Virus record (IMG/VR): IMGVR_UViG_3300021952_000022 | Location: 1 to 34,331 of that record | DNA from: a virus | Strand: one strand, 5' to 3' | DNA length: 34,331 bases | Shown: positions 24,458-32,674 of the stretch, piece after piece | How the letters are laid out: each line of letters starts with the position of its first letter | Position numbering within the stretch: position 1 is the first letter of the stretch | Notes under the pieces: model-generated | What the model saw: the letters and a program-made list of their open reading frames with translations, nothing else | Databases searched by the model: none | Told to the model about the DNA's origin: nothing | Position numbers and translations under genes: made by a program

Positions 24458-24782
24458 TCCTGTTATCCAATCTTTCGTAGTCACCTTCGGGAGTTAATCT
24501 TACTATCTCTACACCGTGAAGATGTAAAGGGTATTCGGCTGGATCGGCCCAACTGGGAACCATCCAACCTTTCACCGTAGCCTTTTTGGGGTTTAGGTGA
24601 ATACTATCTGTGCCTAAGTTATGGCATTTATGATGCACCGCTATTAAATTTATTACCTCATCTTTGCCCCCGCGAGATTTTAACTTTCGGTGATGTAATG
24701 CGAAATCATCACCTGGAAGGCCACACGCTTCACAATATCCTTTAGCGCGATCCAATACGGTTTCGGCTATGCGCTTATCCAT
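24444..24782 (-). CDS. HNH endonuclease
   Basis: The 112-residue protein has Cys17-x2-Cys20, a His-His pair at 30-31 (ALHHRKLKSRGGKDEV), then NLIAVHHKCHNLG. That is the ordered HNH core with zinc ligands. The C-terminal half is basic and then beta-rich. Small HNH proteins of this kind can assist packaging or act as free endonucleases. Here it lies between the proteasome-like hydrolase and SSB, not next to terminase, so a DNA-processing role is more likely than cos cutting. Confidence 0.85.
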   Translation of the reverse strand: MDKRIAETVLDRAKGYCEACGLPGDDFALHHRKLKSRGGKDEVINLIAVHHKCHNLGTDSIHLNPKKATVKGWMVPSWADPAEYPLHLHGVEIVRLTPEGDYERLDNRNGAY

Positions 24783-25311
24783 GTTTCGTTTGTTCCAGAA
24801 ATATAAATGGGCCAGATGTGTAAGGATCTTTATTCGCGGCTACTTGTAACGCTTCTTCAATGCTCGAACCTGCGTGTAATGCTCCCACCGCAAGAGAAGA
24901 ACCAGAGCCGATACCGTAATAACCATCCTCATCAAGACAAACGGCAAGATCATCACTAATATCAAATACCTCACCACCAACTGCAATAAGGAAAGCAAAC
25001 TTTGTTTCATCATCTTCCTTTACATCCCACTTATAATCGTTGTCTTTGAAACATTGTTTGAGCGATGGAATAACTTTTGCAATCATAAAATGATAAAGAT
25101 CTTTTTTATCTGCGGCCGTTGGTGCGGGCGGTTTCCAAATATGCTGGGCCACATCACACGCCGCAACCTCTCCAGCGCCAGCAATGAGATACTGACCGCG
25201 TTCAGTAATCTTTGCCATCTTAGGATGCGAATATTTGCGAGTTGCAGTTACCTGGCTATCTGCGCCGATTATTACACGATCCTCAAATTGAATGGCTGCT
25301 ATTGTGGTCAT
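24775..25311 (-). CDS. HslV/proteasome beta-like Ntn hydrolase
   Basis: The 178-residue protein begins MTTIAAIQFEDRVIIGADSQ. After Met removal the catalytic residues fall at Thr1, Asp17 and Lys33 (KMAK), exactly the HslV and proteasome beta-subunit positions. A GIGSGSSLAVGAL motif (133-145) and IEEALQVAANKDPYTSGPF complete the Ntn fold. It starts at ATG 25311 with AAGG seven bases upstream, right after a terminator. No HslU-type ATPase is seen in the window. It could be a free peptidase, a host-ATPase partner, or a proteasome modifier. Confidence 0.8.
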   Translation of the reverse strand: MTTIAAIQFEDRVIIGADSQVTATRKYSHPKMAKITERGQYLIAGAGEVAACDVAQHIWKPPAPTAADKKDLYHFMIAKVIPSLKQCFKDNDYKWDVKEDDETKFAFLIAVGGEVFDISDDLAVCLDEDGYYGIGSGSSLAVGALHAGSSIEEALQVAANKDPYTSGPFIFLEQTKHG

Positions 25312-30625: not shown

Positions 30626-31417
30626 TTACGGCAAATCGGACATTGTGCGAATTCTGTTCAAAACTTCCTTCACACCTTCAGGCATTGGAATCGCCCTTAA
30701 AGCCCGTTCTGCGGCCTCTTCAGGATCAAATCTAGGAGGTTGTACGGTAGGGGTTGTATTCAGGCTCCTAAAGCCATTCTCGACCGTTCTAGGGGGTAGT
30801 GGATCGTCACTCCACCTGCCCTGATTGAGCCATGTTGAAGGATGGGCCGTAAAGGTCGGTACTCGGTTAGGGTCTTTGGCGTACTTTTGAGCGCCAGAAA
30901 TGATCTCTGAGGCTGGAGCAACCTTGATTGCCTTAGCGAAAGCCTTTTCCGCTTCTTGCTTTCCGACTTTTCTAGGATAAACCAACCAAAACTCATCAAA
31001 TTCATTTGATGATGGTTTTTGTTCTTTATCTTTATCTTCTTCTTTATCTTTATCTTTATGGTTCAACGAATGTTCAACGCCCGTTGAACGAACGCTGAAC
31101 GAACGCTTACCAGCCGTTGAAGCCTTCACCGATTTCTCTCGCACTTTTTCCAGGTCATTCTCTATTCGAGAGTGCCACCAAATCCCGTTTTCATCCACAT
31201 CAAAGAACTCAGCCAGGATCTCTTTATCATCGGCCCATTGCTCAGGTGATAGGCGAGCAACATGAGCCAGGCGATCGTTATGGTTGTCCAGGGCTTTTCC
31301 TCGTTGCCAGTAGTTCATCAATAGCAACATATAAGCCCCGTGTTGCTGGGCCGTAAGGTGTGCAGTATCAGCCAAATAATCTGATACATAAAGTTGCATA
31401 TAGGGCAAAGAACTCAT
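30626..31417 (-). CDS. DUF1376-type replication initiation protein
   Basis: The 263-residue protein begins with a DUF1376 (YdaU-type) domain: YMQLYVSDYLADTAHLTAQQ, HGAYMLLLMNYW. A Lys/Asp/Glu-rich linker near 120-133 (KDKDKEEDKDKE) separates it from a C-terminal module with FDEFWLVYPRKVGKQEAEKA and HPSTWLNQGRW, common in phage replication proteins. It probably acts like lambda O or a helicase-loading protein. The linker region of the gene carries a symmetric repeat array that may be the origin. Its start overlaps the previous stop as TAATG. Confidence 0.75.
   Translation of the reverse strand: MSSLPYMQLYVSDYLADTAHLTAQQHGAYMLLLMNYWQRGKALDNHNDRLAHVARLSPEQWADDKEILAEFFDVDENGIWWHSRIENDLEKVREKSVKASTAGKRSFSVRSTGVEHSLNHKDKDKEEDKDKEQKPSSNEFDEFWLVYPRKVGKQEAEKAFAKAIKVAPASEIISGAQKYAKDPNRVPTFTAHPSTWLNQGRWSDDPLPPRTVENGFRSLNTTPTVQPPRFDPEEAAERALRAIPMPEGVKEVLNRIRTMSDLP
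31018..31122. repeat. Iteron-like symmetric repeat array, candidate replication origin
   Basis: Inside the replication gene, GTTCAACG occurs at 31061-31068 and 31072-31079. It is followed by the inverted forms CGTTGAAC (31082-31089) and CGCTGAAC (31093-31100), with a further CGTTGAAG at 31115-31122. The repeats in each pair start 11 bp apart. A strongly A/T-rich purine/pyrimidine tract lies at 31018-31060. Iterons plus an AT-rich tract inside the initiator gene is the lambda O/ori layout. Confidence 0.55.
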
Positions 31418-31683
31418 TACTTACCTTCCAGAAATCTAATAGTGTTGTTGAAAATTGATTCCACCCATTCGGCAAATGATGATTTGCTTTTACCGAAAAC
31501 CCAGCGATCTCTTTCCTCAGCAAGAGTTACTGCTAGTTCGCTCTTAATGCGCTTTTCAATTCCCGCCTCATAATCCCTGGCTCGAACAATAAGAGCGATG
31601 TGATCGCACTCATAAGCGGATAAGCAGCGATCATTATGCAAATCCTCAAATGCCTGGATTGCCTCTTCAATAATAGTTTTCAC
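31417..31683 (-). CDS. Small helical hypothetical protein
   Basis: The 88-residue protein is mostly helical (IIEEAIQAFEDLHNDR, RIKSELAVTLAEERDRW) and ends SFAEWVESIFNNTIRFLEGK. The start is GTG 31683, overlapping the whiB stop as GTGA. No family is recognised. It lies between WhiB and the replication protein. Confidence 0.55.
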   Translation of the reverse strand: MKTIIEEAIQAFEDLHNDRCLSAYECDHIALIVRARDYEAGIEKRIKSELAVTLAEERDRWVFGKSKSSFAEWVESIFNNTIRFLEGK

Positions 31684-32012
31684 ATTAACCTTCTCTCGAC
31701 ATTGGAAGCCTCTAGTACCTCTTCAAATGTTATCCCGAACTCTTCCAAATCCCGCTTTAGTGGCTCTAAGAAACGCGAGTTTAATTTGTCATTTACGATT
31801 TCATTGCGTTCTGCTGACGATACCCCGCCCCACATTCCAAAACGCTCATTGGCAAAACCTACCTCTAGGCATTGCTGACGAATCGGACAAGCAAAACATA
31901 CGCGGCGCATTTGGCGATGGCTTAAATATTTATTCTTCAAAAACTCTTCTTCAAGGTAAAAGAATTCCGTACTTAATCCGCTGCAATTTGATCGTGACCA
32001 ATCAACCTTCAT
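31680..32012 (-). CDS. whiB: WhiB-like iron-sulfur transcription factor
   Basis: From ATG 32012 the product is 110 residues; an ATG at 32033 would add seven. Four cysteines are placed as in WhiB proteins: one near the start (SNCSG), then CFACPIRQQC with C-x2-C-x5-C spacing. They are followed by the GMWGG turn and SSAERNEI. WhiB proteins are confined to actinobacteria and their phages and act with the host sigma factor. It may redirect host transcription, possibly at the phage promoters with the shared element. Confidence 0.85.
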   Translation of the reverse strand: MKVDWSRSNCSGLSTEFFYLEEEFLKNKYLSHRQMRRVCFACPIRQQCLEVGFANERFGMWGGVSSAERNEIVNDKLNSRFLEPLKRDLEEFGITFEEVLEASNVERRLM

Positions 32013-32017
32013 GCGAT

Positions 32018-32674
32018 CTATTTTCCTGAGCATCCAGCAAACCCACTTTCATCGTAGTAAGAGCAATATTCGGCGCAAAAGAATCGAGCCGATCTTTCTG
32101 GCGGTGGTGGGGTGTCCATAGCCTTTACTTCAGCAACCCAGGAGCGGGCCTCTTCAACAAGAGCGAGATTGTAATCATCTTCCCAGCAGACAATATCCGA
32201 CATTTTGCCATCTCTAGGAATGAAAACTAATCCCACGCGCTTTACTGGGTAATGCTGCGAAATCAAACTTGCATAAATATTTACTTGCATTTTCTGTTGT
32301 TTAGTCGGTAAGCCGCCTTTAGCGATCTTTGCCATAGTAACTGTTTTCCAGTCATAAACGGTTTCAGATTTGCGTGAATAGAAATCGCAATGACCCTTGA
32401 AGTATTCATCGCTAAAACCTTCCTCTAATATGAAATCATCGGCAAATACATCGTAAGCCTTCAATGCTTCATAAATGGTGGTGTGCATGGCCGATCCAAT
32501 TATGGCGCTGAGTTTTTCTGTATCGTGATTTGTTTTAGGAGTTTGGTTCAAGATGTGCCACGCCTGGGTTCTGCATCCACCTACTGAACTGGCTCCCAAT
32601 TCAACTTGTAGAGAACGATCTTTTTGGCCGTCTGCTTGATTAAGAGCAGTAGTAAGAGTTTTTATAATATCCAT
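32018..32674 (-). CDS. Cas4/RecB-like 4Fe-4S exonuclease
   Basis: The 218-residue protein has a PD-(D/E)xK nuclease core: His64 (GSAMHTTIYEAL), Asp97 (GHCDFYS), Asp108-x-Lys110 (YDWKTVTM) and Gln130-x3-Tyr134. Four cysteines (Cys34, Cys200, Cys204, Cys215) are placed as in Cas4/AddB iron-sulfur clusters. No CRISPR array is near. It most likely works with the annealing protein and SSB in phage recombination. Confidence 0.8.
   Translation of the reverse strand: MDIIKTLTTALNQADGQKDRSLQVELGASSVGGCRTQAWHILNQTPKTNHDTEKLSAIIGSAMHTTIYEALKAYDVFADDFILEEGFSDEYFKGHCDFYSRKSETVYDWKTVTMAKIAKGGLPTKQQKMQVNIYASLISQHYPVKRVGLVFIPRDGKMSDIVCWEDDYNLALVEEARSWVAEVKAMDTPPPPERSARFFCAEYCSYYDESGFAGCSGK

Follow-up and report, generated by a model that had tools for sequence, protein, structure and literature searches.

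A probable intragenic replication origin of 11-bp-spaced iterons in the linker of a phage DUF1376 initiator gene

The IMG/VR virus record IMGVR_UViG_3300021952_000022 contains an array of short DNA repeats in the middle of a gene for a 263-aa replication protein. What is this array for? A preliminary description regarded it as a candidate for a lambda-like origin; repeats of this kind could also be an operator, an RNA element, another type of DNA site or a by-product of the encoded protein. We analyzed the entire stretch of 34,331 nucleotides (called the window here) together with related genes. The sequences make it highly probable that the array and the tract next to it form an intragenic theta origin of the lambda/pSK41 type, which lies in the linker of the initiator's own gene and would be bound by its DUF1376 protein, with the tract predicted to melt and a helicase to be loaded.

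The array extends over positions 31060-31123 and is made of 9-bp near-palindromes with the consensus CGTTSAACG in strict 11-bp steps (Table 1). On the gene strand the units read in mid-gene GCTTCAACGGC TGGTAAGCGTT CGTTCAGCGTT CGTTCAACGGG CGTTGAACATT CGTTGAACCAT, followed by the A-rich tract. The 11-bp step places every iteron on the same helix face. With five to six units in exact 11-bp steps, the array has more than the three similar sites on one helix face by which an iteron origin is recognized, and within the window the units cluster only here. The preliminary description had listed four 8-mers; these are present (GTTCAACG at 31061-31068 and 31072-31079, CGTTGAAC at 31082-31089 and CGCTGAAC at 31093-31100), and the gaps between them are indeed 3, 2 and 3 bases. 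It had also located an 11-bp phasing inside each pair. The phasing is real, but it is not confined to the pairs and spans the whole array when 9-bp units are considered. The mirror symmetry, which had been presented as the key feature, turned out to be incidental: GTTCAAC and GTTGAAC, which differ in the middle base alone, are each other's reverse complement, so that near-palindromes with two C-centred and two G-centred units look like a mirror in the window. The order of the centre bases in non-redundant relatives shows no mirror preference (neighbouring units: CC 59, GG 30, GC 22, CG 21).

Table 1. Features of the initiator gene and its array, and classes of variant arrays in related genes. 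Iteron scores are matches to CGTTSAACG on the gene strand.
Feature	Position in window	Strand	Description
263-aa initiator gene	30626..31417	(-)	DUF1376 (YdaU-type) N-terminal domain, disordered linker, C-terminal domain
DUF1376 winged-helix-like domain, residues 5-89	31151..31405	(-)	Pfam match; putative DNA-binding/oligomerising part
AGxxS motif, residues 98-110	31088..31126	(-)	codons for KASTAGKRSFSVR; putative DNA-contacting element
Iteron 1	31115..31123	(-)	GCTTCAACG, 7/9
Degenerate iteron position	31104..31112	(-)	TGGTAAGCG, 5/9, in 11-bp register
Iteron	31093..31101	(-)	CGTTCAGCG, 8/9, reading frame 1
Iteron	31082..31090	(-)	CGTTCAACG, 9/9, reading frame 0
Iteron	31071..31079	(-)	CGTTGAACA, 8/9, reading frame 2
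Iteron adjoining A-rich tract	31060..31068	(-)	CGTTGAACC, 8/9, reading frame 1
A-rich, T-poor tract of 6-bp repeats (ATAAAG)	31014..31059	(-)	putative DNA-unwinding element
C-terminal domain, about residues 135-213	30779..31015	(-)	PHROG 270/9474 replication initiation matches; putative helicase/primosome recruitment
CGCTSAGCG-like class			L060, L064, L178
TGCTNAGCA-like class			L049-L056
TGCSAACGCA-like class			group including L278, L302, L307, L313, L317

The A/T-rich tract that had been noted beside the array is likewise real. It is 46 bp long, follows directly on the gene strand and is built of 6-bp repeats (AAAG ATAAAG ATAAAG AAGAAG ATAAAG ATAAAG AACAAAAA). A T-poor tract of this kind comes after the array in nearly all genes with a linker array, with tandem units of 5 bp (AGAAG), 6 bp (GATAAA, GATACA, ACCAAC) or 7 bp (AACCAAT). 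In 63 such genes the 30 nt past the last unit have 70% A+T on the gene strand (58% A and 12-13% T), and A+T is about 48-50% further downstream. The AT-rich element which belongs next to the iterons of an origin is therefore present, with a putative role in melting. Plasmid Rep proteins bind the repeats of some unwinding elements in single-stranded form (PMC4081077). The A-rich tract resembles these elements, and by analogy it may be such an element in this phage. Just past the tract, at 30993-31012, two 9-bp arms (TCATCAAAT/ATTTGATGA) form a perfect inverted repeat around a loop of 2 bases.

The array could owe its regularity to the DNA or to the protein, and the preliminary description had argued for the DNA. 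Three analyses uphold this. Synonymous codons were shuffled 2000 times within the gene, with protein and codon usage kept. The lag-11 identity of the natural sequence (26/33) was reached in none of the 2000 shuffles, whose maximum was 23/33; the score over four units was 33/36 compared with a shuffle maximum of 30. When 43 close relatives, all of them distinct, are aligned, the normalised codon entropy is 0.11 in the array and 0.00 in the tract, versus 0.81 before and 0.76 after them, and array plus tract differ from the rest of the gene with p=1e-8. Single or nearly single codons are used for N108, R110, S111, N119 and H120 in the array and for K121 to K129 in the tract. A comparison of relatives had been suggested as a check on the origin candidate; in these 43 genes the repeats are kept at the codon level. 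Furthermore, an 11-bp step does not span a whole number of codons, and neighbouring units are therefore read in different frames. One 9-mer is translated in three ways (RST, V(Q/E)R or (F/L)N), and 218 units divide over the three frames as 61, 75 and 82. The gene is a clean case of a single DNA word maintained in all three frames of one protein.

The 263-aa protein belongs to DUF1376: its match to PF07120 has E=2.9e-24 and 85.7 bits, compared with a curated Pfam cut-off of 30.1. It also matches the primosomal protein PHROG 9327 (3e-46) and, over residues 105-228 in its C-terminal half, the replication initiation protein phrog_270 (3e-24). An AlphaFold2 model (mean pLDDT 84.8) has a confident winged-helix-like N-terminal domain and a confident helical C-terminal domain. 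Residues 115-130 between them, which are encoded by the end of the array and the tract, are disordered in the model (pLDDT <50). In comparisons of the N-terminal fold with known winged helices by VIA-align, ORC2 scored Z 7.1, pSK41-type RepA Z 6.2 and DnaD Z 4.7, all below the caution line of Z 8; these values are too low for a claim of family membership and indicate a winged-helix arrangement only. The RepA structures 4pql/4pt7 superpose with 2.4-2.8 A over 69-73 residues at Z 6.2, a score which other winged helices equal. A Foldseek search of the PDB gave no match at E<=0.001. In Pfam the protein had no match to RepA_N (PF06970) and none to a Phage_rep_O-type N-terminal domain; the matches were DUF1376 and a sub-threshold Tad4.

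We collected 65 protein relatives and 160 more through two alignments of the N-terminal domain. Runs of CGTTSAACG units occur in 52 of 122 non-redundant genes that had been picked by protein alone. The runs mostly start at nt 300-360 of the gene, which is the linker, and a second cluster of starts at nt 90-180 lies inside the DUF1376 domain. The second array, again in 11-bp steps at about nt 106-193, is found in L190-L214, L268, L287, L321 and L326 and is absent from the window. It is possibly a further binding patch or an autoregulatory site.

In the opposite approach 2.9 million viral contigs were scanned blindly, by DNA only, for a three-unit pattern, which occurs at 88 loci. At least 76 of these arrays are inside initiator genes, 56 of the DUF1376 type and 20 of the Lin1244_N type, as judged by HMMs made from the N-terminal 95 residues only, to which linker peptides cannot contribute. 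Earlier profiles that included linker peptides had given 71 of 88 and were partly circular. The Lin1244_N assignment (PF14297) was confirmed by Pfam on example genes. Among 14 whole viral records, 13 have the pattern at a single place, in the initiator gene. The claim that the array sits in an initiator linker as in lambda O is supported by the predicted disorder of the linker and by DNA scans that land in such linkers. With the pattern recurring at one position across many distantly related phages, it is very probably the site at which their replication starts.

Most of the remaining 12 of the 88 loci have genes with this layout that are cut short or divergent; among the 12 are two ORFs that are truncated, several look-alikes that have diverged, one gene off the tested frame, and L110, L135 and L150. 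In these last three, as at several genome loci, no initiator ORF was recognised at the array (L135:2949-2978, which is followed by an A-rich repeat tract; L110:4008-4059; L150:11758-11820). These arrays might be origins that are no longer tied to an initiator gene, or might mark genes that have decayed. Eleven stretches of bacterial genomes match the pattern, at least five of them in DUF1376/Lin1244_N-type genes. A Geomonas contig has twelve GTTCAAC units in strict 11-bp steps (L162:1207-1335), and no DUF1376 gene was recognised in this 8-kb locus.

Could the repeats do something other than start replication? An operator, by which the initiator or another regulator would autoregulate the early operon or coordinate transcription while replication starts elsewhere, is the strongest competitor and still an unlikely one. 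In its favour, autoregulation is frequent among initiators, a repressor would be served well by palindromic sites, and many relatives have the second array inside the DUF1376 domain. However, the linker array is about 300 nt inside the coding region, it is single-copy in the 13 of 14 whole records mentioned above, and the tandem-repeat tract that follows it in nearly all genes would be needless for a simple operator. A constraint on the mRNA, with inverted units forming hairpins that regulate translation or stability, is less probable again. The RNA folds better than shuffles in the window (z -3.65) and in L029 (z -2.65), whereas L018 (z -0.10), L047 (z -0.94) and L015 (z -1.81) have no significant structure despite equally good arrays. 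The folding signal is not conserved across relatives, and on this ground the hairpin was rejected. Moreover, same-orientation neighbours (CC, GG) outnumber inverted ones, and RNA pairing has no need of an 11-bp phase.

Sites for partition, packaging or recombination can likewise consist of arrayed short repeats; we give this explanation very little weight, as the array goes with DUF1376/Lin1244_N initiator genes and not with terminase, integrase or partition genes. The least credible explanation, hardly worth retaining, is that the repeats are a by-product of biased codon use in a linker protein of low complexity (RSTxVxRxxN, KDKDKD). The tract does encode KDKDKD or TDTDTD, that is an acidic/basic linker. 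Against a repeat at the protein level or a codon bias stand the synonymous shuffles, the codon entropy with its invariant codons, and the use of one DNA word in three frames, all of which led us to reject it. In addition, the 7-bp tracts are not codon multiples, and the A2 group has lag-7/14 signals beyond those of shuffles.

The origin reading has well-studied precedents. The O protein of lambda consists of an N-terminal DNA-binding part, a linker and a C-terminal helicase-loading part. In the lambda ori, iterons bound by the initiator lie mid initiator gene and are followed by an AT-rich tract (PMC7466680). The window has the same layout, as do the Stx lambdoid phages. It differs from lambda in that the protein carries DUF1376 in place of the Phage_rep_O domain, the units are 9 bp in 11-bp steps and not larger iterons, the tract here and in relatives is built of tandem 5-7-bp repeats, and no P-like loader was recognised next to the initiator in the window. 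In the staphylococcal pSK41 replicon of the RepA_N type, the winged-helix N-terminal domain of RepA binds Rep boxes that are central in the rep gene, and the residues encoded by the ori are a linker (PMC5703833). Here too the iterons are within the initiator gene, and RepA scores near the top in the fold comparisons with the N-terminal domain, at a Z below the caution line; the family match is missing, however, the sequence and spacing of the iterons differ, and pSK41 is a plasmid and not a phage. The partner of its C-terminal domain is the host primase, whereas the phage domain would have the host helicase/primosome as partner. The oriL of the Bacillus phage SPP1 also has direct repeats and an AT-rich unwinding element inside the initiator gene, gene 38 (PMC6316719). 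SPP1 has its own loader (gp39), helicase (gp40) and a second origin, oriR, none of which was recognised here. These published layouts join the tests above in supporting the core of the preliminary reading, origin-like iterons and an A/T tract in an initiator linker, for which the comparative evidence is strong.

A further relative is the ydaU-ydaV pair of the E. coli Rac prophage, in which YdaU is a DUF1376 homologue and is followed by a DnaC-like gene. Its linker has a degenerate repeat set and a GATACA/GATAAA tract. Unlike in the window, the repeats of E. coli K-12 ydaU are degenerate and have a periodicity of 23 bp and not 11 bp. We rejected it as a clean example, since lag 11 is not significant and only the 23-bp repeat is found. 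Rac has an active origin, oriJ (PMC3945230). A link between oriJ and ydaU was not adopted; the RefSeq stretch examined has no oriJ feature, and the literature found does not place oriJ.

How might such an origin work? The array, its helical phase, its position, the constraint on the DNA, the adjoining tract and the recurrence in initiator genes across phages are observed; from these we infer the 263-aa protein as the binder, the melting of the tract and the helicase step. The N-terminal half of the DUF1376 protein would bind the CGTTSAACG iterons on one helix face, and initiator and iterons would assemble into a compact nucleoprotein complex. The adjoining 6-bp repeats, A-rich and on the 3' side with respect to the gene, would then melt, and the initiator might hold one of the strands. 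Recruitment of the host replicative helicase, either directly or via a host loader, would fall to the C-terminal domain; host loading is assumed because no helicase loader was recognised in the window. In the literature searched, which included few subscription journals, we found nothing relevant on DUF1376, YdaU or Lin1244 in connection with origins, or on the 9-mer. The layout of an intragenic iteron origin is known, and the CGTTSAACG/11-bp motif in DUF1376/Lin1244_N genes is provisionally new. DUF1376 and Lin1244_N are widespread phage domains whose function in Pfam is unknown or loosely defined, and the array would give them a concrete target and role. With it, the origin could also be pinpointed by sequence in many phages, both temperate and environmental, a large number of them with uncultured hosts, and the iteron class would predict compatibility groups.

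Genes without CGTTSAACG often retain an 11-bp array of another class at the same position (Table 1). In the CGCTSAGCG and TGCTNAGCA classes both arms depart symmetrically from the main consensus, which is what two-fold recognition would lead one to expect. The main class is accompanied by a protein segment, KASxAGKxSAxxR, at the end of helix 83-109. Among the 122 relatives it occurs in 58 of 70 genes with an array and in 7 of 52 others (Fisher p=5e-15, uncorrected for shared ancestry). AGxxS is present in all 76 array genes found by the DNA pattern, again with shared ancestry uncorrected. That DUF1376 and Lin1244_N genes alike have the motif speaks against simple co-inheritance, but the two may have a distant common ancestor. 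It is conceivable, although we lean against it, that CGTTSAACG in 11-bp steps with tandem A-rich repeats is a portable origin common to both types of initiator. It would be read by the common AGxxSA segment and not by a family-specific domain, and switches in the segment would track the symmetric iteron changes (CGCTSAGCG, TGCTNAGCA). Such an origin would amount to a phage-wide system of replication specificity that can be predicted from sequence.

The surroundings of the gene fit an initiator. It lies in an early/replication cluster with genes for a RusA-like resolvase, a Cas4-like exonuclease, a WhiB-like protein and SSB nearby. In related phages the initiator gene precedes a helicase-loader/DnaC-like gene; among the neighbouring ORFs tested here (WhiB, exonuclease, RusA and unknowns) no helicase loader or lambda P-like gene was recognised. 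The GC-skew check proposed earlier did not point to the array: the cumulative skew is lowest near 3 kb and highest near 23 kb, and 31 kb is not an extremum. Since the record is a linear fragment whose genes lie almost entirely on one strand, little can be read from this. The WhiB-like gene next to the initiator (31680-32033) suggests an actinobacterial host. The exonuclease gene of the cluster, of the Cas4/PD-(D/E)XK type, is at 32018-32674. At 24775-25311, adjoining genes for an HNH endonuclease and SSB, the window has a match to the peptidase HslV family (PHROG 1040, 3.5e-30).
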